A stretch of 64,000 nt of DNA, taken from positions 806,001 to 870,000 of the forward strand of contig NZ_RBKS01000001.1 of NCBI RefSeq assembly GCF_003634555.1. The letters run 5' to 3'. Shown one piece after another: positions 31,746-43,529 of this stretch (its first letter is position 1; every line of letters begins with the position of its first letter). The notes beneath the pieces are model-generated. The model was not told the DNA's origin. It searched no databases and saw only the letters and a program-made list of their open reading frames with translations. Source of the DNA: Frondihabitans australicus (GTDB lineage Bacteria; Actinomycetota; Actinomycetes; Actinomycetales; Microbacteriaceae). A program made the translations under genes and the position numbers.

Positions 31746-32120
31746 ATGACGAAGTCGACGAGAAGCAGAGAGCTGGGCATCCGCGGCGAGCAGGAGGCAG
31801 CTGAGCACCTGGAGAGGTCGGGGTTCCGGATCCTGGCCCGCAACTGGCGGTGCGCCGAAGGGGAGATCGACATCGTGGCGCACGAGGCCGCCACTGGCGA
31901 CGTCGTGATCGTCGAGGTGAAGACCCGGCGCGGGCACGGAGCCGGCCATCCGTTCGAGGCGGTGAGTCGCGAGAAGCTCTCACGGCTGCGGACTCTGGCG
32001 ACCGCCTGGTCGCTGGCGCACCCCGGCGTGGGGTGCCGGCGGCGGATCGACGTGGTCGGCGTGACGGCGTGGCCCGACGACAGCCTGACGGTCCAGCACC
32101 TCGTGGCGGTCGACCTGTGA
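31746..32120 (+). CDS. yraN: YraN/UPF0102 family nuclease-fold protein
   Basis: This 124-residue protein has the restriction-endonuclease-like core LGIRGEQEAAEHLERSGFRI, then AEGEIDIVAHE and VIVEVKTRRG, with the D-ExK catalytic pattern. The family (YraN/YhbR-type) sits next to comM in many bacteria; a role in recombination or transformation is suspected but unproven. The stop overlaps the GTG start of comM. Confidence 0.92.
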   Translation: MTKSTRSRELGIRGEQEAAEHLERSGFRILARNWRCAEGEIDIVAHEAATGDVVIVEVKTRRGHGAGHPFEAVSREKLSRLRTLATAWSLAHPGVGCRRRIDVVGVTAWPDDSLTVQHLVAVDL

Positions 32121-33166
32121 GCGTCGCACGCACCCGGGCGGTGTCGCTGCTCGGGCTGACCGGCGCCCTGGTCGAGATCGAAGCCGACATGAGCGACGGC
32201 CTGCCCGGGTTCCTACTCATCGGCCTTCCCGACGCGTCGCTGGGTGAGGCGCGCGATCGCGTCCGGGCGGCCGCGTCGAACTCCGGCTGCCCCCTGCCGC
32301 CGCGCAAGCTCACCGTGAACCTGTCGCCGGCGTCGCTGCCGAAGCACGGCTCGTCGTTCGACCTCGGGATCGCCGTCGCGGCCCTCGCAGCCGCCGACCT
32401 CGTCGACCGCGAGTCCATCGAGCGCGTGGTGCACCTCGGCGAGCTCGGACTCGACGGTCGCCTCCGGCCGGTCAACGGGATCCTGCCCGCGGTTCTCGGG
32501 GCGGCGCGCGCCGGCGCGGCGACGATCATGGTGCCCTCTGCCAACGCCGATGAGGCCTCGCTCGTGCCGGACGTACGGATCGTCGCGGTGCCGAGCCTCC
32601 GCGACGCCGCCATCTGGCACGGCGGCGACTTCGCTCCCGAGCCGGTCGAGGCGATCGCGCGAGAGACCCCTGCGCAGAGCGAGTCTCCCACGCTCGAGCT
32701 GGGCGACGTGATCGGCAACCCGGCGGCCGTCGACGCGCTCATCGTGGCGGCGTCCGGCGGGCACCACCTGCTCATGGTGGGCCCGCCGGGTGCGGGCAAG
32801 AGCATGCTCGCGGCGCGCCTTCCCGGGATCCTGCCGGATCTCGACGTCGCCTCGTCGCTCGAGGTGTCGTCGCTGAGATCCCTCAGCGGGCGGGGTGTCG
32901 CGGGTGCGCTCGAGGTGCGGCCGCCGTTCGAGAGCCCGCATCACTCGTGCAGCGCGGCCGCCCTCGTGGGAGGCGGCAGCTCGGTGATCCGACCGGGTGC
33001 GGCGTCGCTGGCGTCGCGCGGCGTGCTCTTCCTCGACGAGGCTCCCGAGTTCGCCGTCTCGGTGCTCGACTGTCTGCGTCAGCCGCTCGAGTCAGGGGAG
33101 GTCACGATCCATCGGTCGCGGGCCGTCGCTCGATTCCCCGCGCGGTTCCAGCTCGTGGTCGCTTAG
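32117..33166 (+). pseudogene. comM: comM (YifB family Mg-chelatase-like AAA ATPase), 5' part, cut by insertion
   Basis: This encodes the N-terminal 349 residues of ComM, a helicase that helps integrate donor DNA during natural transformation. The Lon-like N domain is followed by Walker A MVGPPGAGKSMLAARLPG and Walker B GVLFLDEAPEF. The frame runs normally to RFPARFQLVVA and then meets TAG at 33164-33166, supplied by the inserted element. The missing part resumes at 41788 with the next expected residues, AANPCPCGQYG. The start is GTG 32117, overlapping the yraN stop. The protein lacks its C-terminal domain and is probably inactive. Confidence 0.93.
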
Positions 33167-33173
33167 ATAGCGT

Positions 33174-33185
33174 CTGACGCGTCAG
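33174..33185. repeat. Left-end palindrome of the element
   Basis: CTGACGCGTCAG is a perfect palindrome 11 bases inside the left junction and just ahead of the TGC-TACAGT promoter of the first recombinase gene. It resembles TGACTAGTCA near the right end and may be a recombinase-binding site that also controls the promoter. Confidence 0.65.
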
Positions 33186-33201
33186 TGCTACAGTCGGGGC
33201 C

Positions 33202-34716
33202 ATGGATGGCGCATTGGATCAGGCTCGGGCAGAAGCGCCTGCGCCATCGTCATGGCGAGTTTGGAGTACGTCGCGCGGTTATCGGAGAGGCGCTGACCCC
33301 GCCTCGTGGATCGCGGAGCGCGAGTGGCTAGATTCGCAGATGCTCGAAGAGGGTTCTCCCTTCATCCTGTCTCCCGATGGCGGATTTGATGTCGATGTAA
33401 ATCGCTACCTGTCACGGGCCGTGATGCTGTCGCGTTCCATAAACACGAGGAAGGCGTACGCCGATGATTTGGCGCGTTTTCTCACGTTTCTCGGCTTAGG
33501 TCGGCCTGGCAGTCGTGAACCGATCGACTGGCGCGAGGCAACGGTCGAAGACCGTCGTCGTTTCAACTTCTGGCGGAATCGGAGTCCGGAAGGCCCTCAC
33601 GTCTCAGCGAGAACGTGGAACCGCGAGGTCACGGCGGTATTTCAGTTCTACGAGTGGGCGGTCAACGAGGATCTTGTCACCGAGTCTCCCTTTGAGACCA
33701 AGAAGACGTGGAGGAGCCACCGTGCGGGCGGCGGTTGGGTCCGCGTTCCGACGGAGACTCGAGCGGATGACGATGCGTCGTTCGCGACTTGGCTGACAGC
33801 ATCGGAGTACCGGCAGTGGCGCGACATCGGGATCCGTGGATTCACGGCACGGGGTCTGCCGGATACGGCTTTCCGGGGGCCGCAGGCTGGCCGCAACGTG
33901 GCGTTCGTTGATCTGATGGTGAGTTCCGGGATGAGGCTGACGGAGCAGGCAGTCCTGTTGAAATCGGACGTCCCGAGTCGTTCCGGGGGCAACTCGCATG
34001 AACGATTGCGCCTCTCCGCTCGGACGACAAAGGGCAGCAAACGGCGGCATGTGTACGTTCCTCATTCCGTACTTGGCGAGATTGAGGCGTACTGCGAGTT
34101 CGAACGCGCTCAGGTCGTCGAAGACGCGCAAATGCGTGGCGACTACGGGTCGTTGGAAGACTGGTTTCTGCAGTCGTCGCCGACGGTAGCGACCGTTGTC
34201 GGTCCCAGCGGAGAGAAACGAAAACTGGCGACTCTCACGGCTCGCGAGCGAATGCGGGTTCTCGTCAGAACCGAGGCGGGCTTAGAGCCGGCCGCCCTGT
34301 GGCTTTCGGAGCGAGGTTTGCCACTTCGACCGCCGAGCTGGCAAACGATATTCCGAGGGGCCAATGAGCGCAACGTGAAGGCCGGCACCGGCATTACCTG
34401 TCATCCTCACGCGCTCCGCCACACGTACGCAATGGCCACGCTGGAGAAGCTCCAGCGAGGCCAGAACGATGTTCTCGCCGACAAGTCCGAGCGGCAGCGA
34501 ATGCACTACGCCCAGGTGTTCGGAGATCCCATCAACTGGTTGCGACTTCGCCTCGGTCACCGATCTGTCACGACAACCCACCTCTACCTCCGGCTTCTGG
34601 GTGACCTCGAGATGGAGACACGGCTTCGTCTCCTGGGTGATGACCAGGAATGGTCGCTTCCTGTCGACGACGGAAATCAGATCACCGACCACTCGATGGC
34701 GAGGACTCAACTGTGA
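33202..34716 (+). CDS. Tyrosine recombinase 1 (TnpA-like) of the comM element
   Basis: This 504-residue site-specific recombinase has a complete active site: Arg in VSSGMRLTEQAV, Lys in TTKGSKRRHVYV, HALRH (His and Arg), His in RLGHRSVTTT and the nucleophile Tyr in THLYLR. An N-terminal SAM-like core-binding domain covers about residues 60-170. It is longer than TnpA of Tn554. An extended -10 box (TGC-TACAGT, 33186-33194) lies seven bases before ATG 33202. Its stop overlaps the next gene (GTGA), so the three recombinases are probably made in fixed ratio. Confidence 0.9.
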   Translation: MDGALDQARAEAPAPSSWRVWSTSRGYRRGADPASWIAEREWLDSQMLEEGSPFILSPDGGFDVDVNRYLSRAVMLSRSINTRKAYADDLARFLTFLGLGRPGSREPIDWREATVEDRRRFNFWRNRSPEGPHVSARTWNREVTAVFQFYEWAVNEDLVTESPFETKKTWRSHRAGGGWVRVPTETRADDDASFATWLTASEYRQWRDIGIRGFTARGLPDTAFRGPQAGRNVAFVDLMVSSGMRLTEQAVLLKSDVPSRSGGNSHERLRLSARTTKGSKRRHVYVPHSVLGEIEAYCEFERAQVVEDAQMRGDYGSLEDWFLQSSPTVATVVGPSGEKRKLATLTARERMRVLVRTEAGLEPAALWLSERGLPLRPPSWQTIFRGANERNVKAGTGITCHPHALRHTYAMATLEKLQRGQNDVLADKSERQRMHYAQVFGDPINWLRLRLGHRSVTTTHLYLRLLGDLEMETRLRLLGDDQEWSLPVDDGNQITDHSMARTQL

Positions 34717-36518
34717 CCCGACGCGCACGTCCCACCGGCAACGGAGTTTCCTCGGTCCAGCCTCTTCACGGCGATGGCTACGTCGATCCGTTGACGGTCA
34801 TGGATGACGGGACAGTCCGAATCGCATTCTCCGGGCTTGATGGCCGGACAGCGACGCTCTCCACTGCGTCTTGGCCGATGCGCCAGCTACATGAAGCAAT
34901 CGGGCGTCAATTCGCTCAGATCGTGACCGTCAGCGGCACACGTAATACGCTCGCGTCGGCAAAGAGTCTCTGGAGCGACTGCAGGAAAGTCGTCCGCTAC
35001 CTCTCGGAGGAAGCCCCCGACCTTCCGGGCCTCGGGGCTCTGCGCGTCGAACACGCGCGTGAGTTCTGGGCGGATCTCACACGGAAGAACTCGGCTAGTG
35101 CAGCGGCCATCATCGGCAATGTCAACGTCGTCCTCGGCAGCGACGACTCGCTTGACAGCGGATTTCTCGTCGAGCTCGGTCGTCCGCGACGCCAGAATCG
35201 TTCGGCAAACCGTGACGGACTCGGCAAGGACCTCAGCGACGCGGAGTTCGAACGAGTCAAGGCCGCCGCGCGCAGCCAGGTCGTCGACATTCGGCAGCGC
35301 GTGCGAAAGGGGCACCGCTTGATTGAGGCCTACCGGAACGACCCCGAGGCGGTTCCCGCCCACGAGAGACGTTTGGCCGCACTTCTGACAGAGTTTGCCG
35401 ACACAGGGTTCATGCCGGTCCTCGCGCCCTTGGGGCCCGACTACCAGTACAACAAGGGCCGGATGAAGTTCGCCGCCCACATCTCCCTCGTCGAGGCAGA
35501 CATGATGCCGCTGTTGGCACTCTTCTGCTGCCTCTCCGGGCGCAACTCGGAAATTGTGAAAGAACTCCCTTTCCGCCACGAGATTCGCGACGGCGTCGCA
35601 CTGAGCTGCAAAGTGGTGAAACGTCGCTCGGGCAAGCACAGTTGGAACGAAACCGCAGTCTGGGAGATTGGCCGAGAGAGTCGACAGCTTCACGAGCCCG
35701 GGGGATTCTTCCTGCTCATCCAAGAACTCACGTCGATGGCCCGGCCCCACGTGGACCAAGACCGACTATTCCTGACCTGGGTGAACCCCTACGGAAAATA
35801 CCGCGACGGATTCCGGTTCGCGTGGTCTCAGGGCCTGGACCAGATCAAGATGCTCTGGGCGCATTGGGCCCGAGAGCAAAACCTCGTCAACGACGACGGT
35901 GGAGAACTCGTCTTTGACCTGAACGCTGTCCGCACGGCATTCATTCGTCAGCGATCACGCGCCCTCGGAGGGCACGCCCCCTCGTCAACGTTCCAAAACA
36001 GCCTCGAGGTCCTCTTCGACAACTACCTCCGAGGAGATCCCGAAACCATCCAATGGGCCAGGAATCTGGTCGCCGACACGTACCGCGACGTCGAGGTCAT
36101 GATCCGCGCTCAGCACGCGAAGACATTCCAGGCCACGGGTGGCCGCATCCCGTCCCTCGACGACGACACCTCAGAGGGTGCCCCGGATCCGGCACTGCGC
36201 GCCTACAACTCCTGCGCCGATCTCCTTCTCGGACCGGTCAACCCAGGGGAGCCCTGCCGGGCAAGTGTCCTGACCTGTTTCAGGTGCCCCAATGCGCTTG
36301 TCGGCGAACGTCACCTCCCCGCACTGGTTCATCTCGAACGTGACCTCCGGGAACGCTCCGAAACGATGCCCATTCACGATTGGTGGGCGCTGTTCGGACA
36401 GGCGTGGATGGCCCTCACCGAAGACGTCCTCACGCGGTTCACCGACGCGCAACTCAACGCGGCCGAGGAGGCGGCTGATGACTTCCCGCCGCTCGAATGG
36501 CTGGAGGACGCCGCATGA
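34713..36518 (+). CDS. Tyrosine recombinase 2 (TnpB-like) of the comM element
   Basis: This 601-residue protein is a divergent tyrosine recombinase. Recognisable active-site parts are Arg in LSGRNSEIVKEL, Arg in DLNAVRTAFIR (the usual His two residues before is Asn-Ala), His in ALGGHAPSSTFQ and a Tyr in FDNYLRGD. The C-terminal region has CADLLLGPVNPGEPCRAS and LTCFRCPNAL, a Cys-rich patch typical of the second integrase in such sets. It starts at GTG 34713 inside the stop of gene 1 and overlaps gene 3 by ATGA. In Tn554, TnpA and TnpB are both needed; the same is inferred here. Confidence 0.82.
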   Translation: MTRRARPTGNGVSSVQPLHGDGYVDPLTVMDDGTVRIAFSGLDGRTATLSTASWPMRQLHEAIGRQFAQIVTVSGTRNTLASAKSLWSDCRKVVRYLSEEAPDLPGLGALRVEHAREFWADLTRKNSASAAAIIGNVNVVLGSDDSLDSGFLVELGRPRRQNRSANRDGLGKDLSDAEFERVKAAARSQVVDIRQRVRKGHRLIEAYRNDPEAVPAHERRLAALLTEFADTGFMPVLAPLGPDYQYNKGRMKFAAHISLVEADMMPLLALFCCLSGRNSEIVKELPFRHEIRDGVALSCKVVKRRSGKHSWNETAVWEIGRESRQLHEPGGFFLLIQELTSMARPHVDQDRLFLTWVNPYGKYRDGFRFAWSQGLDQIKMLWAHWAREQNLVNDDGGELVFDLNAVRTAFIRQRSRALGGHAPSSTFQNSLEVLFDNYLRGDPETIQWARNLVADTYRDVEVMIRAQHAKTFQATGGRIPSLDDDTSEGAPDPALRAYNSCADLLLGPVNPGEPCRASVLTCFRCPNALVGERHLPALVHLERDLRERSETMPIHDWWALFGQAWMALTEDVLTRFTDAQLNAAEEAADDFPPLEWLEDAA

Positions 36519-38593
36519 GTCACGTAGGCCTCGCCGCATCCGCAGCAGCCCACGAGCCGACGCCTTCCGTATTCGGCCGACGGACAATCCGCCTCGATGA
36601 CGCCCGCGGGACCCTTCCGACCTTCGCCGATGACGCGTGGGATCTCTCCGCCATCCAACTCGCCGAGAACCTTCGCAAGCTGACCTTGAACTTCGCGGCC
36701 CTGCCACCGTTCTACAAACTCGTCACGAAGAACCTTTTCCGCACCCTGATCACACTTGAAGGCTCGGACGGTGAGGCTGCCATGGCCGCAGCCACAATCC
36801 ACACCAAACTCTCCAACATCAAAGCGTTCCTGGAATGGCTCAGCGCCGACGGTGAGCCCGCCCTGTCGGCTGTGACGATGAGAGACCTGGAGCGATTCAC
36901 CGACTTCGCGGTCTCCACCTGGAAATCCGTCAAAACGAAGCCCTTCGACGTCGTCGACGCCGTCAGGCTCTTTTACCTGTTCCGCCAGGAACTCGACGGC
37001 GACGGTCTCATGGTCGACCCCGGCCAGACCGAGTGGCGCCGATCCACTCCCTATCCACGATCCAGCGCCGACAACACCACGCTGCGCATCCCGGAAGGCG
37101 TTCTCCGGCCCCTTCTCGAATGGTCACTGCATTGGGTCGACCACTATGCACCCGACATCTTCCGCGCCCGCGACGAATACTTCGAACTCCGAAGCCGAGG
37201 CCGAGTAAGAGCAACTCGACAGCGTTTCGGAGACCCGGGTGTCCCTGCCATCGGTGAACTCGCCAAAGCCCGCCTCCGTGACGTCTTAGACCGCTACGTC
37301 AAAGAAGGACGGCCTTTGCCTAGCCGGCATCTATCAGGGGACGACCGTCGGGTCAACGTGCTCGCGCTGGCGCGAGAAGCGCACGCCAACGACATCTACA
37401 TCGGCACCCATGGACGCGAACTTATCGATACCGCTGCGTCCATTGTCGGCATCGATGACGACACCTACCTGCGAACGGAGACATCAGCGCTGGGGGACCG
37501 GCCAGCTCTCCCTCGTTTCAACACGACGAACTTCCTCAACGAACTTTCAAACCTGCAAGCCGCCTGTTACGTCCTCATCGCGTTCTTCTCGGGCATGCGC
37601 GATGACGAAATCAAGAGCTTGCAACGCGGGTGCCTCCGTGAAGTGCACGATTCGACCGGCGCGATTACGCGCTTCCACGTCAAAGGCATCGCCTACAAGA
37701 ACGAGCCCCCGGGTGGCACCGAGGCGATGTGGGTTGTCGGGGAGTACGCCGCTCGATCCATTCGTGTTCTCGAGCAGCTACACCCGGAGACGCAGGCTGC
37801 ACTATTTGCGGCGCCAGCGCACGGGCAGAGCGCGCAGAAGCGATCCAGACAAGCTGTCCCGTACTCGAAAACAAACCTCGACCTTGCGCGGCTCGTGGCC
37901 GTCATCAACGGTCTCATGGATACCGCAGGGGTCGGCGAGTCGCTCCACCATGAAGGCAGCCCTTGGTCACTGGCTACGAAACAGTTCCGACGGACTCTTG
38001 CTTGGTTCATTGCTCGAAGGCCCGGTGGTTCCATCGCCGGCGCAATCCAGTTCCGCCACCAAACAGTGCAGATGTTCGAAGGGTATCTCGGCACGGACAC
38101 GGCGGGATTCCGCGTCGAGGTCGAGGGCGAAGAGACCCTGCTGCGCGGCGAGTACCTGATCAACGTTGCCCAACAGGGAGCGGGCCACTTCCGAGGCCCG
38201 TCCGCAGCCATAGCGGATACGCGTGCAGCAAACTTCGCGTCCCGAATCGGTTTTCCCGGAAACGTCGCGGAAGGCACCCGCCAGTTCGACATCGCCGTCA
38301 AGCGCGCTCAACCTGACGTCTTCCACGGACCGCACGTGACCTGCGTGTTCAATCGCCCCAAGGCGGCGTGCCTCAACGGCGACACGAAGGCCGTCAGGCC
38401 AGTCTTCGCTCGCTGCCGTCCATTCGCCTGCGCCAACGTCGCGCTCGACGACGAGAACGTGCAGTTCTGGCAGGACGAGTATGTGGGAGTGCAGCGTCTC
38501 CTCGCAGTCTCTGCCACACTCGCACCATTTGTCGTCGATCAGATGACGACATACCTTCAGAACATCGCTGAACTGCTGGGAATTGAAGGCTAG
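36515..38593 (+). CDS. Tyrosine recombinase 3 of the comM element
   Basis: This 692-residue protein is the largest of the three. Active-site remnants are Arg in FFSGMRDDEIKSL, the segment TKQFRRTLAW where the HxxR His is Lys, then QFRHQTVQMFEGYLG with His and the likely nucleophile Tyr. The C-terminal region has CVFNRPKAACL and CRPFACANVAL, another Cys-rich patch. Tn554 has only two recombinases, so this set is closer to the three-integrase elements seen in other genomes. ATG 36515 overlaps the stop of gene 2. Confidence 0.82.
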   Translation: MSHVGLAASAAAHEPTPSVFGRRTIRLDDARGTLPTFADDAWDLSAIQLAENLRKLTLNFAALPPFYKLVTKNLFRTLITLEGSDGEAAMAAATIHTKLSNIKAFLEWLSADGEPALSAVTMRDLERFTDFAVSTWKSVKTKPFDVVDAVRLFYLFRQELDGDGLMVDPGQTEWRRSTPYPRSSADNTTLRIPEGVLRPLLEWSLHWVDHYAPDIFRARDEYFELRSRGRVRATRQRFGDPGVPAIGELAKARLRDVLDRYVKEGRPLPSRHLSGDDRRVNVLALAREAHANDIYIGTHGRELIDTAASIVGIDDDTYLRTETSALGDRPALPRFNTTNFLNELSNLQAACYVLIAFFSGMRDDEIKSLQRGCLREVHDSTGAITRFHVKGIAYKNEPPGGTEAMWVVGEYAARSIRVLEQLHPETQAALFAAPAHGQSAQKRSRQAVPYSKTNLDLARLVAVINGLMDTAGVGESLHHEGSPWSLATKQFRRTLAWFIARRPGGSIAGAIQFRHQTVQMFEGYLGTDTAGFRVEVEGEETLLRGEYLINVAQQGAGHFRGPSAAIADTRAANFASRIGFPGNVAEGTRQFDIAVKRAQPDVFHGPHVTCVFNRPKAACLNGDTKAVRPVFARCRPFACANVALDDENVQFWQDEYVGVQRLLAVSATLAPFVVDQMTTYLQNIAELLGIEG

Positions 38594-38599
38594 ACGAGC

Positions 38600-39013
38600 A
38601 TGGCTACTCCCAAGGACCTCAACCGGGCCGATGTCGAACGGCTCCTCGCCGCCTACCTCGAAGAAGCGGAAGCGGACGGCGGCGAGCCAACCGTCGCCGA
38701 GTTCGCTCGTCGCCTCGACGTCAAACGACCCGCGTTCATCTACGCCTTCCCCGATCTCGTCGCACGCATCGTCTCACCACCATCACGACCGACGCTTGAA
38801 CCTTCAGTCCGGGAAGCTCTCGAAACTAAGCTCCAACGCGAGCGCGGCAGGCGACGTGCGGCCGAACGTGGCCTCGAGCTCTACGCCGCCCAAATCCGCC
38901 GGCTCACCCTCACGAACGCAGAGCTCGAACGGCAGCGCGCGGCTCTCGAGGCAGACCTGGCCTCGCGAGAGGGCATCGCCGACCTTCGGAGCCGGCGACC
39001 CCGTAATCCATAA
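38600..39013 (+). CDS. TnpC/DUF6262-like small accessory protein
   Basis: This 137-residue basic protein lies six bases after the third recombinase gene. The first 65 residues look like a small DNA-binding helical domain (EPTVAEFARRLDVKRPAFIY, TetR-like turn). The rest is a coiled coil (LETKLQRERGRRRAAERGLE, then LTLTNAELERQRAAL). TnpC of Tn554 is a protein of similar size, layout and position that affects transposition orientation and frequency. The match is by architecture, not by a database search. Confidence 0.7.
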   Translation: MATPKDLNRADVERLLAAYLEEAEADGGEPTVAEFARRLDVKRPAFIYAFPDLVARIVSPPSRPTLEPSVREALETKLQRERGRRRAAERGLELYAAQIRRLTLTNAELERQRAALEADLASREGIADLRSRRPRNP

Positions 39014-39159
39014 GTTCGGGTCGCGTCGGCAGTCGAGGACTGGTCACTGGTCTATGAGCCTGCGAATCGAGACTCCGAGGCACCCCTAAACGGGGGTAGG
39101 ACGATTCGTTGCCATCTTTCGGGGTCGTCGTTAGATTTCTCTCACGATCACTTGGGGGA
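39014..39159 (+). promoter_or_regulatory. Junction between transposition genes and cargo
   Basis: This 146-bp gap holds a short hairpin (ACCCC-TAAAC-GGGGGT, about 39083-39098) that may end the recombinase transcript. TTAGAT near 39131 is a possible -10 box for the cargo, and a GGGGGA ribosome-binding site lies before ATG 39160. Confidence 0.4.
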
Positions 39160-40572
39160 ATGACAGTGAAAATCAAAGTATTTGTCGTGTCGGTCGTTGC
39201 TATCACGTCGATTGCCGTGGGGATGGGGTCGGCGGCGTCGGCGGCGCCATCGGCCAGCACCACGTCCGCATCAACGCCGGTCGCTGCGTCGACAGGGCAG
39301 GCAGTGACGGCCGAACAAGCAGCGGAACTGGCTAAGAACGGAGTCGCGACCGGGGTGGCTCCTAGCGTCCCGGGCTCGGCACCGAAGATGAACGCCATGA
39401 AGTCGAAGACGTGTTCTGCGCCTTCGTCCGCGGGCACATACGAGTGCCTCGAGCCGGCCACCGTGGCGAACGTTGGAAAAGCGGAGATGGCCAAGCTGCA
39501 GAAAGCGGCGGCGGGCATCGAGACGAAGCCTTCTAACTCGGCGAAGGCGCCACAGCAGTCTGCCGCGGCCGTCGATGCCGACGGGACCCCGCTCTATCCC
39601 GTCGACTCATGTCAGAAGGCTCAGCCTGAAGGCGAAGTAGTCCAGACCAGATTCGAGGCTTGCCAACTCGACGACTGGGTTGCCGATATCTATCAAACGG
39701 ATGACGACGGCAGTCAGGAACTCATCGGTTGGGTCGACGGTATCGACGCGATTTACTCGCAGATGGTCGACGGCTCGACGAACTGGGCATCCGGTGTGGA
39801 CCTGGAAGTACTCGACACGGTTGGGGCGGGCGCTTCGGCAGTGTTGACGGCCGAGCCCGTGTGCGCAGGTGATGCCTGCAACGTGCTCGAAATTGACGCA
39901 ATCAACATGGACCCGGTGACAGCCGAGGACGAACAAATCGGGTCGGCCTACTACGACTGGACACCCGTCAAGGGTGGCACCGGCCTGGGCGAAGTGGCTT
40001 GGACCGTTACCGTCGAGACGCCCGGTGCAGTGCCCGGTACAGCGGAGTTTAGGAACGTGCCGACGCGCTGCGACAAGGCTCTGCCGAACAGCAACAGCGT
40101 CGGTTGCGTCGACCCCGACACAACCGAATACATCCTGTTCGACACCACGGTTCTGCCATCATTCACGCACCACCTGGCCGAAGCACTCGGATCGGGTCTG
40201 CCTGGAGCCGACTACGGCAGCAACCCTTCGCCCCTGCACAGGCTCGTGAACGCCACGCTCCGCAACAAGAACCGCTCGACAGCCTGCCCGGCATCCTTCC
40301 CTCGACCTTCGGGTGAGAGTTGCGACGAATACCCATTCGCCTCGACCAAGGAGGGCGCCTTCACCGGCAACGGCGCCGGCGCCCGTACGTTCGATGGTTG
40401 CGACATCACCCTGCCGAATCCTTCGTCGACCGGGCCGACCGGTTGTAGCGTCTGCATGATTGATGCGACTCAGAACTCCAAGGCCGGTTCGGATCTTCAG
40501 GTGCAGCTCTACCGCCCGTACCGGATGCTCGACGGCGACACGTTCAACGTCGACTACACGGTCATCAACTAG
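39160..40572 (+). CDS. Secreted NucA/NucB-type deoxyribonuclease
   Basis: This 470-residue exported protein has a clear signal peptide (KIKVFVVSVVAITSIAVGMG, cleavage near ASAAPSA). A Ser/Ala/Lys-rich pro-region follows to about residue 145, then an unknown Cys-containing domain to about 365. The C-terminal 100 residues carry the NucA/NucB hallmark SCDEYPFASTKEGAF with catalytic acidic residues, and end LDGDTFNVDY. NucB degrades extracellular DNA, and NucA of Bacillus subtilis helps DNA uptake. ATG 39160 is chosen over an upstream in-frame start because it gives the signal peptide and follows GGGGGA. It is cargo of the comM element. Confidence 0.8.
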   Translation: MTVKIKVFVVSVVAITSIAVGMGSAASAAPSASTTSASTPVAASTGQAVTAEQAAELAKNGVATGVAPSVPGSAPKMNAMKSKTCSAPSSAGTYECLEPATVANVGKAEMAKLQKAAAGIETKPSNSAKAPQQSAAAVDADGTPLYPVDSCQKAQPEGEVVQTRFEACQLDDWVADIYQTDDDGSQELIGWVDGIDAIYSQMVDGSTNWASGVDLEVLDTVGAGASAVLTAEPVCAGDACNVLEIDAINMDPVTAEDEQIGSAYYDWTPVKGGTGLGEVAWTVTVETPGAVPGTAEFRNVPTRCDKALPNSNSVGCVDPDTTEYILFDTTVLPSFTHHLAEALGSGLPGADYGSNPSPLHRLVNATLRNKNRSTACPASFPRPSGESCDEYPFASTKEGAFTGNGAGARTFDGCDITLPNPSSTGPTGCSVCMIDATQNSKAGSDLQVQLYRPYRMLDGDTFNVDYTVIN

Positions 40573-40583
40573 GAGATGAGCCA

Positions 40584-41174
40584 TTGACCAGCGGAGTCAT
40601 CAACGTCGACGACCACCTCTTCTACCTGAGTAGCCGGGCAATGTACGACTTCGGGGCGGCACGGCAGAGCAGGATCGACGGACTCGTAAGCGATTTCGAC
40701 GGAACGTTGGCTGTCATGGCCGGCATAGCCGCTGGACCTGTCCGCATTCATGCCTCTCTCGTGGACGAAGCGCCTCAAGATCTCGACACGACACCTGACA
40801 CAGGTTCGGGTCGACTCATCACAGCGGGACCGCTCTACTTCTACGGGCCCGACGGCGACACATTCAGCCCGCCAGAATTCGCTGCCGTCGAACGCAGCGC
40901 GTACGGAGTCCAAATACAGGCCGAGGGGCGGGACGTTGCCTGGGACCTCGTCGTGACCGAACCTGTCGAGGACTACAACGTCATCGTCTGGCCCCTCCGC
41001 CCAAGCGAACGGTTCGCACTCCTCAAGCAAGCGCACAAACAAGCACTGGCCAGAACAACGCCAGGAGTCTTCGTCGGCGAAGAAGCGCGCAGAAGGCAAC
41101 GCGAGGCACGCGCGCGGCAAGAGCAAAAACGGAACGGCGGTGACGTCGGTCCGGGGGAAGCCGCACATCGGTGA
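40584..41174 (+). CDS. Candidate nuclease inhibitor (ComJ/Nin-like?), first copy
   Basis: This 196-residue protein without signal peptide or membrane segment is encoded 11 bases after the DNase gene. It starts at TTG 40584, preceded by AGGAGATGAG. Its core has alternating beta-strand patterns and ends in a block GRDVAW...YNVIVWP, shared with the next protein. A charged Arg/Gln-rich helix follows. Genes for NucA-type nucleases are commonly paired with an intracellular inhibitor (Nin/ComJ in Bacillus). The N-terminal VDDHLFYLSSRAMYD and the overall shape could fit that family, but the assignment rests on context. Confidence 0.55.
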   Translation: MTSGVINVDDHLFYLSSRAMYDFGAARQSRIDGLVSDFDGTLAVMAGIAAGPVRIHASLVDEAPQDLDTTPDTGSGRLITAGPLYFYGPDGDTFSPPEFAAVERSAYGVQIQAEGRDVAWDLVVTEPVEDYNVIVWPLRPSERFALLKQAHKQALARTTPGVFVGEEARRRQREARARQEQKRNGGDVGPGEAAHR

Positions 41175-41605
41175 GTCCAAGGCTTGAGCAGGTTCAGTAC
41201 GTCGCGTCGATAGACATCTCGTCTCTGCACGTCATCGGCGCGCAAGCCGCGAGCGAGATTAGGTCGAACGACACGGATGGAGACCTGATCATGTCGCTTC
41301 CCGATGGCCTGCTCGTGACAACGGCAGCCGAGGACGGCGACGTACCGGTCACGGCCGAGCGTTGGGACAGTGAGCCGCCCACCGATGAGTCCTGGGAGGA
41401 ATCGTCGGAGATAACTATCGAGACGCACTCCGAGGATGGGAATCTGTGGGTCGGTGGATATGACTACACCAATCCGGAAGAACCCATTCTGACGGGCGGG
41501 AATGACGGGCGATTCGTTCTGCGGGTGTATGCCTCTGGCCGGCAGATCCCGTGGGTCGGACCGATCACCGAGAGCTACCTCGTGCAGGTCTGGCCTTCGG
41601 AATAG
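41171..41605 (+). CDS. Candidate nuclease inhibitor, second copy
   Basis: This acidic 144-residue cytoplasmic protein starts at GTG 41171, overlapping the stop of the previous gene (GTGA). It ends GRQIPW...YLVQVWPSE, matching the GRDVAW...YNVIVWP block of the preceding protein, so the two are paralogues. The sequence is rich in Glu and Asp, as inhibitors of DNA-binding enzymes often are. No family was recognised with certainty. Together with the DNase gene it forms a compact three-gene cargo unit. Confidence 0.5.
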   Translation: MSPRLEQVQYVASIDISSLHVIGAQAASEIRSNDTDGDLIMSLPDGLLVTTAAEDGDVPVTAERWDSEPPTDESWEESSEITIETHSEDGNLWVGGYDYTNPEEPILTGGNDGRFVLRVYASGRQIPWVGPITESYLVQVWPSE

Positions 41606-41787
41606 CCGGATCTCGCAATGGCTCTGTGCGATTCGTTCGTCTATCTCAAGGTGCCTTTGGCTGCGTCTCTAGGTGCCCGAAGTTCCTGACCTAGTCAGCC
41701 CGGTCGGGAGTACCGACCTTTCCCATTGGCTCTGCTCAGCTCCCCTCGGGCGCTTCTGGTTCTGACTAGTCAAAGTAGCGCCATAAG
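41606..41787. repeat. Right end of the element with inverted repeats
   Basis: This 182-bp non-coding end holds three inverted repeats: CTGAC-CTA-GTCAG (41686-41698), GGTCGG-GAGTA-CCGACC (41702-41718) and the palindrome TGACTAGTCA (41763-41772), 18 bases inside the right junction. The first and last resemble the left-end palindrome. They are probably recombinase-binding sites. Confidence 0.65.
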
Positions 41788-42282
41788 ATGGCGGCCAATC
41801 CCTGCCCCTGCGGGCAGTACGGCGCGCGGGACGCCGCGTGCACGTGCTCGGCCCAGTCGCGGCGGCGCTACCTGGCCCGGCTCTCCGGGCCGCTCGTCGA
41901 CCGCATCGACATGCAGCTCCGGGTGGCCCGGATCGCGTCGGCGCAGTTCCGGCTGGCGGAGAGCGGCGAGGTCACCACGGTCTCGACGGCCGATGCCCGC
42001 GAACGGGTCCTCGGCGCACGTGCGCGTGCCCGCGAACGCCTGCGCGCGACCCCGTGGTCTCTGAACGCGGAGGTGCCCGGGCAGTTCCTCCGCAGCGGCG
42101 ACCGACGCCTCGACGCCTCGCGCACGGGCGCGATCGATCGCGCCCTCGAACTCGGCACGCTGACCATGCGGGGCTACGACCGCGTTCTCCGCCTGGCCTG
42201 GACTCTCGCCGACCTCGATGGCGCCGACCGGCCCGACCGCTCGCACGTCTCGAATGCGCTGGCGCTGAGGAGGTCGCTGTGA
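41788..42282 (+). pseudogene. comM: comM, 3' part, beyond the insertion
   Basis: This is the C-terminal 163 residues of ComM. It opens AANPCPCGQYGARDAACTC (zinc-binding Cys residues) and ends with the usual helical lid ([33 protein letters not shown]). The insertion places an ATG directly in frame at the junction, so a fragment could be translated, but it lacks both nucleotide-binding motifs. The stop overlaps the dprA start (GTGA). Upstream of the ATG no ribosome-binding site is visible. Confidence 0.9.
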
Positions 42283-43529
42283 CCGGGCGAGGGCTGCTCG
42301 CTGGCTTCGGCGACGGCGAGATTGCCGACATGCTCGGCGGTGTCGGCCGCGCTGGCGGCGCTGACAATGTCGCCCGCGCTGCGGGCGCCGGCGGCGCCGG
42401 GGCGAATGACGCCCTCGCCAGCGCCGTGTGGTCGTGCCTCACAGAGCCGGGCGACGGCGCAGCAGGCCTTCTGCGTCTGGCTCTGGGGCCGGCCGGTGCT
42501 CTGGCGGCGCTCGAACTGCCCGACGACGAGATCGTGCGCCGCCTCGAGGCACGCGGTGCCGGCGAGGCGTCCCGTGTCGATCTCACCGGCGCGCGCAAGC
42601 GCTGGGAGCCGCGCATGTCGGCGACCGCCGTGCGATCCGCCTTCCGCGCCGCGTCCGTCCTCGGGGTGCGCCTCGTCGTTCCCGGCGACGCCGAGTGGCC
42701 CGCGGGCCTCGACGATCTCGGCCTCCACGGCCCGGCAGCGCTCTGGATCCGGGGCGACGCGGGTGCGCTCACCGCGAGACCCGGCATCGCGATCGTGGGG
42801 AGTCGTGCCGCGACCGGCTACGGCGAACATGTCGCAGCCGACCTCTCGGACGGTCTGAGCACTCGAGGGTGGTCGGTGTTCTCGGGCGGCGCGTACGGCA
42901 TCGACGGAATGGCGCACCGTACGACCGTGGCGTCCGACGGCCTCACGGTCGCCATCATGGCGGGCGGCGTCGACCGCTACTACCCGGCCGGGAACGCCGA
43001 CCTGCTCCGCCGCGTCGCGGAGACGGGTGCGGTGGTCGCCGAGGCGCCCTGCGGAACCACGCCGTCGCGCTGGAGATTCCTCCAGCGGAACAGGCTCCTC
43101 GCCGCCACGACGGCGGCGACCGTCGTCGTGGAGGCCGGGCATCGCTCGGGCGCGCTGAACACGGCCAACCACGCTCGCGCGCTCGAGCGGCCCCTGGGCG
43201 CCGTGCCCGGTCCGGTGACCTCGCCCGCGTCGGCCAGCTGCCACCGGCTCCTCCGGGAGGGCGGCGCCGAGTGCGTGACGAGCCCTGACGACGTCGTCGC
43301 GCTCGTGACCGGAGGCGTCCTCGACGACGTCGCCCGCTACGGGCCCGGTCGCGACGCACCAGGCGAGATGCGAGTCCTCGACGCCCTGTCGACCCGGTCC
43401 GCGCAAACGGACCTCGACGTCGCGCGACGCTCTGGTCTCGCCGCGGGCGAGATACGGGGGATCCTGGCTGTGCTCGAACTCGGCGGCCGCGCCGAGGAGC
43501 GCGAGACCGGCTGGGTGAGATGTCATTAG
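42279..43529 (+). CDS. dprA: DNA-processing protein DprA
   Basis: This 416-residue protein loads RecA on incoming single strands in natural transformation. The Rossmann-like core has [66 protein letters not shown] and [10 protein letters not shown], all typical of DprA. An N-terminal helical domain covers about residues 1-110, and a C-terminal winged-helix-like segment starts near 360. GTG 42279 overlaps the comM stop. Because comM is cut, transcription now may depend on the element or on a weak local promoter. Confidence 0.95.

Follow-up and report, generated by a model that had tools for sequence, protein, structure and literature searches.

A GInt-type element carrying a predicted exported DNase splits comM in Frondihabitans australicus at a recurrent insertion site

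The comM gene encodes a DNA helicase and has been linked to transformation in other bacteria, and radC is the insertion target of Tn554. Among elements moved by tyrosine recombinases, GInts have been defined by a ginABCD operon, cargo placed after ginD, a short AT-richer 3' end and 6-nt staggered cuts (Bardaji 2017, PMC5385486). They are flanked by imperfect direct repeats of 10-17 nt, their circular excision needs all four genes, and in the published examples insertion mostly takes place at the end of a gene or is considered not to abolish target function completely (PMC5385486). RIT elements consist of three recombinases only, which in the archetype measure 315 to 410 aa (PMC10214605). Insertion into comM is known from Tsy, a tyrosine-recombinase transposon with YRec, HTH and TnsF genes that inserts beside the Walker B of comM, and from Tn6022/AbaR, whose comM selector TnsF is an inactivated tyrosine recombinase (Faure 2023, PMC10293859).

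The split comM gene and the class of the element

The window analysed here comprises 64,000 nucleotides of the complete 4.04-Mb chromosome of Frondihabitans australicus, an actinobacterium of the Microbacteriaceae. The features of the comM region are as follows, with positions counted from the first letter of the window:

32117-33157, + strand: 5' part of comM/yifB, to codon FQLV (TIGR00368 residues 4-344 of 499)
33158-41787, + strand: whole GInt element, 8630 bp, its end placed at the hexamer of the comM C-terminal part (comM-C); excision repairs ComM
33158-33163, + strand: left hexamer GTCGCT (attL), after which the element begins TAGATAGCGTCTGAC; similarly placed in other comM GInts
33202-34716, + strand: ginA, tyrosine recombinase, 504 aa (PF00589 E=1.1e-7, PF02899)
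34794-36518, + strand: ginB, large recombinase-type protein, about 574 aa; start uncertain, the ORF opening at 34650
36497-38593, + strand: ginC, 698 aa
38600-39013, + strand: ginD-like gene for a small coiled-coil protein, 137 aa, directly 3' of ginC as in relatives
39109-40572, + strand: predicted exported NucA/NucB DNase, 487 aa from the first TTG (PF14040)
40584-41174, + strand: DNase partner copy 1, putative inhibitor/immunity protein, 196 aa (partner profile E=1.2e-9)
41171-41605, + strand: DNase partner copy 2, 144 aa (same profile, E=1e-13)
41606-41787, no strand: short non-coding 3' end, GC 58%, closing with CTGACTAGTCA to GCCATAAG, an imperfect inverse of the left end
41788-42282, + strand: 3' part of comM, starting ATGGCG GCC AAT (MAANPCPCG), 164 aa (PF13335, PF01078; TIGR00368 residues 344-499)
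42336-43529, + strand: dprA, intact, downstream of comM (TIGR00732 E=1.5e-59, above the cut-off)

The initial annotation had proposed that a Tn554-like element spanning 33163-41790 breaks comM right beside dprA. The break was confirmed by ComM/YifB (TIGR00368) matches on both sides (E=6.7e-103 and 7e-28) and lies within the conserved (L/M/V)A-ANPCPCG motif, FQLV being the last residues at 33157 and MAANPCPCG resuming at 41788, with 8,630 bp between them. The intact dprA indeed begins at 42336, just 3' of the comM end at 42282, and the element exists as described once its limits are corrected to 33158-41787. In-silico removal of this interval gave, in frame, a ComM of 511 aa that aligned with those of two genus-mates with 0 gaps (identity 82.6% across 501 residues for one and 79.1% across 511 for the other), and the reading frame is therefore exactly regained. 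Neither half of comM shows signs of decay. As long as the element stays integrated, ComM would be split ahead of its C-terminal domain with probable loss of its function, and precise excision would restore it.

The element differs in composition from its surroundings (62% GC, versus 70-74% in the flanks; 58% at its 3' end, versus 70% in the adjoining flank). Its ends are imperfect inverted repeats finishing in CATAA-like motifs, which would permit insertion in either orientation, and CAYAAG followed by the hexamer is common to the 3' ends of other comM GInts. The two 6-bp cores, GTCGCT at attL and ATGGCG at attR, are equal at 3 of 6 bases and thus form a weak direct repeat. At every comM-C end read, the hexamer on the comM side encodes L-A or M-A in frame, ATGGCG being the commonest hexamer at the comM site among 52 motif matches. 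The left hexamer was also considered as proof of an earlier comM donor and rejected: T is its final base at each of the nine ends read at the comM N-terminal part (comM-N), the window included, which means that the element itself may have supplied part of it. No second copy of the element was found in the host genome.

Three long recombinase-type proteins are present as the initial annotation had stated, together with the small coiled-coil GinD. GinA shares 37-44% identity with GinA of actinobacterial relatives. The ginB product gave no Pfam match, and the gene is homologous to the second gene in nearly all relatives. GinC may be catalytic in this element, unlike what has been described for other groups, because R368, R498/R499, H521 and Y530 are invariant in the alignment of its relatives. 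The ginD-like gene has tblastn matches at the same position in L076, L083, L102, L108, L117 and other related loci, and the ginABCD-type order of four genes is present on plasmids and chromosomes across Actinomycetota. Judged from this gene content, namely three tandem recombinase-type genes at the 5' end, a small ginD immediately 3' of ginC, cargo straight after ginD (39109 on) and a short AT-rich 3' end, the element is a GInt, an already known type.

The element thus described shares with the GInts of PMC5385486 the ginABCD order at the 5' end, site-specific insertion and the 6-nt core; by contrast, that paper reports no GInt from Actinomycetota or in comM, the gene core is cut here rather than the gene end, and the cargo is very small (about 2.5 kb). 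The label Tn554-like is imprecise. Site-specific transposition by tyrosine recombinases, a 6-bp footprint, a TnpC that corresponds to GinD and imperfect terminal inverted repeats are common to both (PMC10214605), but the tnpA-tnpB-tnpC set of Tn554 has no third recombinase-type gene (PMC10214605), whereas here there are three long ones, of about 504, 574 and 698 aa, besides the small gene. An RIT element is not indicated either, the proteins being longer (504, about 574 and 698 aa) and accompanied by the fourth small gene. Like Tsy and Tn6022/AbaR, the element hits comM at a conserved motif and has a targeting protein of the tyrosine-recombinase family; however, the gene sets differ, and insertion is at ANPCPCG, about 40 codons past FLDE, whereas the TnsF site is Walker B. 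The proposed contrast with the recombinases of AbaR has to be amended: Tn6022 is Tn7-like, but its comM selector TnsF is an inactivated tyrosine recombinase, and insertion of a tyrosine-recombinase transposon into comM was already known from Tsy (PMC10293859).

Insertion sites of related elements and comM in the host family

Scanning the genome contigs with the single GinC sequence gave 0 matches and an alignment-based scan gave 80 loci, GinC relatives being seen in 274 plasmid records and 366 genome stretches. Plasmid and genome loci yielded 77 non-redundant GinC rows, the window included, and the ginA-side boundary was visible in 63. These relatives were sampled starting from the GinC of the window and are all at or below about 40% identity, none above that level being found among the plasmid and genome loci searched; in the tree the GinC of the window is a long branch whose exact placement is unsure. 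comM was the commonest identified target (20 of the 63 resolved boundaries), dprA was the target in 2, and 41 lay elsewhere, in ligD, ligA, umuC, pstA, a methyltransferase, tRNA or intergenic sequence. Assignment to comM and dprA was by tblastn, and the remaining targets were identified by eye in the ORFs at the boundary.

The comM GInts, found in Streptomyces, Microbacterium, Curtobacterium, Mycobacterium and Corynebacterium, break the gene at identical codons wherever the exact junction was read, 8 of the 20 in forward and 12 in reversed orientation. In the forward L090 the cargo lies between comM-N and ginA, and in the reversed L083 and L091 comM-N lies beyond ginD. The comM label changes 8 times on each of the two trees, GinC and GinA, and well-supported branches of the GinC tree force 7 of its changes, so comM was reached repeatedly, although part of these changes may be losses. 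That comM is a repeated landing site of the GInt family in Actinomycetota, in both orientations, is new, and the convergent targeting suggested by the initial annotation is borne out by 20 of 63 relatives at the same codons and at least 7-8 target changes on two trees. Target genes other than comM follow the same pattern, insertion falling in the most conserved codons of a common gene, as at AYGID in dprA (L060, L066) and at TNPPF in a methyltransferase; ligA and pstA are further cases.

Individual loci were observed to differ further. An extra ginB-like gene lies upstream of ginA in three Streptomyces GInts (L083, L088 and L091), two of which are comM insertions in which comM-N starts no more than about 0.5 kb from the ginC end. 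In L137, L138, L148 and L154 (Streptomyces, Saccharopolyspora) an ATP-dependent DNA ligase of ligD type is broken at a PK(F/W)DG-type active-site motif, and in an Arthrobacter GInt (L103:6730) a umuC-like gene is broken at NNDGCV.

Within Microbacteriaceae, comM was present in 360 of the 400 sampled genomes, and among about 150 comM matches listed those of the window's genome and of G236 were cut at the GInt site. In the genus-mate G004 a prophage-like insert (L071:1446-17393) interrupts comM close to the 3' end of the gene, past about residue 136 of its C half; the insert contains a tape-measure-like gene and, at the end facing dprA, encodes a serine recombinase of 469 aa. In another genus-mate, G150, whose completeness is given as 100%, comM and dprA were not detected. 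Neither G004 nor G150 had a GinC match. With comM cut in one and undetected in the other, its function thus appears dispensable in this genus. Also among the matches listed, comM of G080 (L195:about 5573) ends right after the Walker B FLDE, close to the TnsF/Tsy target region, and is followed by phage-like genes; in G286 (L072:4613-5658; assembly 92% complete) the N half of comM matches two overlapping frames, an apparent frameshift. ComEC was found in the host genome, a presence that does not show competence, and a paper on transformation of Micrococcus luteus does not mention comM (PMC8467076).

The DNase and its partner proteins

The cargo had been described as encoding an exported NucA/NucB-type DNase, and this was upheld. 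The C-terminal domain matches PF14040 (E=1.4e-8, 35.6 bits versus a cut-off of 23.8), a Sec-type signal peptide read by eye probably starts at MTVKIK and is cleaved near ASA, and H355, D406-E407 and N456 are invariant among the relatives of the protein. These residues probably correspond to the catalytic H53, D93-E94 and N117 of NucB (PMC5758888), and the DNase is predicted to be active. PF14040 was present in 3 of 149 relatives and in no other sampled family member, so the DNase is foreign cargo. No other sampled GInt carried it within the stretches covered, an absence that applies to the parts covered, as most large comM GInt loci end inside their cargo; in G236, where the whole 32-kb island of the comM GInt was read, neither DNase nor partner was found. 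A Rhodococcus GInt (L106) was rejected as a second carrier, its gene lying about 1.4 kb past the end of similarity to sister copies; this NucA/NucB-type exported protein (L106:18055-19452), just outside the GInt, has no partner gene.

Five proteins whose genes immediately follow NucA/NucB genes in Streptomyces supplied the partner profile, which was searched against 22,685 ORFs. Seven Streptomyces plasmids, two of them additional to the sources of the profile, and one viral contig (L207:2788-4302) have a partner gene directly 3' of a NucA/NucB DNase. Because of this gene order and the homology, the small cytoplasmic partner most likely inhibits the DNase, and the DNase with its two partner copies would form a module of an exported nuclease with self-immunity. 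The arrangement resembles Bacillus NucA-Nin (ComJ), in which the gene of a glutamate-dependent NucA/NucB DNase stands beside a small inhibitor gene (PMC5758888), but here the partner was not recognised as ComJ and is present in two copies, and the DNase is extended by a long additional N-terminal region. Identification of the partners as ComJ/Nin found no support, PF11033 giving no match in the host genome up to E=10. A fold of the partner predicted from two sequences was unusable (pLDDT 33.5), and no relevant match was obtained when solved structures were searched with the profiles of the DNase and its partner. The conserved actinobacterial pair of DNase and partner may represent a new family of inhibitors of NucA/NucB nucleases.

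Possible reasons for the comM insertion

The simplest reading combines a safe, conserved landing site with an ordinary competitive DNase module, and we consider it quite probable that the element is a GInt in a conserved, dispensable comM site carrying a secreted DNase with a putative inhibitor, for competition or eDNA use. The ginABCD products would cut a 6-bp core in the near-invariant comM codons, and a circular form of the island would integrate there, comM serving mainly as a conserved, widespread and dispensable landing site and the DNase with its self-immunity partners serving competition or the use of eDNA. Beyond the observed family, insertion site, recurrence, in-frame repair in silico and DNase and partner homology, this reading expects the element to be mobile and the safety of the site to be the cause of comM targeting; the cut in a gene core, as against the gene-end sites of published GInts, speaks against it, as do the weak direct repeat and, for the inhibitor role, the lack of a ComJ/Nin match. 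By contrast, a fixed, immobile remnant in a pseudogenised comM would fit the lack of a second genome copy and of a GinC relative above about 40% identity, but is improbable given that all seven genes are open and that the comM halves are undamaged, aligning gap-free with genus-mates at 79-83% identity.

Alternatively, GInts may have been selected into comM and dprA to cut their loss by recombination, with the DNase as unrelated cargo. This would be in line with comM being the commonest identified target after at least 7-8 target changes and with its use by Tn6022/AbaR and Tsy (PMC10293859), a serine-integrase prophage and the phage-like insert of G080. However, motif conservation alone explains comM targeting and is shared by the ligD, ligA, umuC, pstA and methyltransferase targets, which are not competence genes, and we regard such selection as rather unlikely. 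The initial annotation had joined both parts into one anti-transformation strategy, in which the comM break stops curing by transformation and the DNase destroys incoming DNA outside the cell. The many independent hits on comM and two on dprA, the ComEC of the host, and the lowered transformation of Acinetobacter upon ComM loss, with less mobile-element removal as a proposed consequence (PMC11472951), agree with it. Such a strategy is possible but finds no support among the relatives: 41 of 63 sit outside comM and dprA, and no other sampled comM GInt has the DNase, two outcomes that the initial annotation had itself named as refuting. Moreover, of the two genus-mates lacking a GinC match, one has its comM interrupted by another element and the other has neither comM nor dprA, and the role of ComM in transformation is taken from other bacteria, not Actinomycetota. 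In B. subtilis NucA promotes transformation, and a NucA-type DNase alone thus does not imply a block. It is very doubtful, then, that Actinomycetota GInts repeatedly evolved to disable comM-dprA against curing, with the DNase here as a second barrier.

With a GInt at a conserved landing site as the preferred reading, comM in Gram-positive bacteria becomes a recurrent landing site for a further mobile-element class, which uses another motif than the Walker B site of Tn6022 and Tsy. As GInts sit at comM as well as at ligD, umuC and dprA, the question of why comM is used becomes testable by comparing sister GInts. Other compact comM GInts carry different cargo, with TOPRIM-like proteins in two as read by eye; these genes, in Streptomyces (L118:12408-13769 and L153:12458-13846), possibly belong to a defence system.
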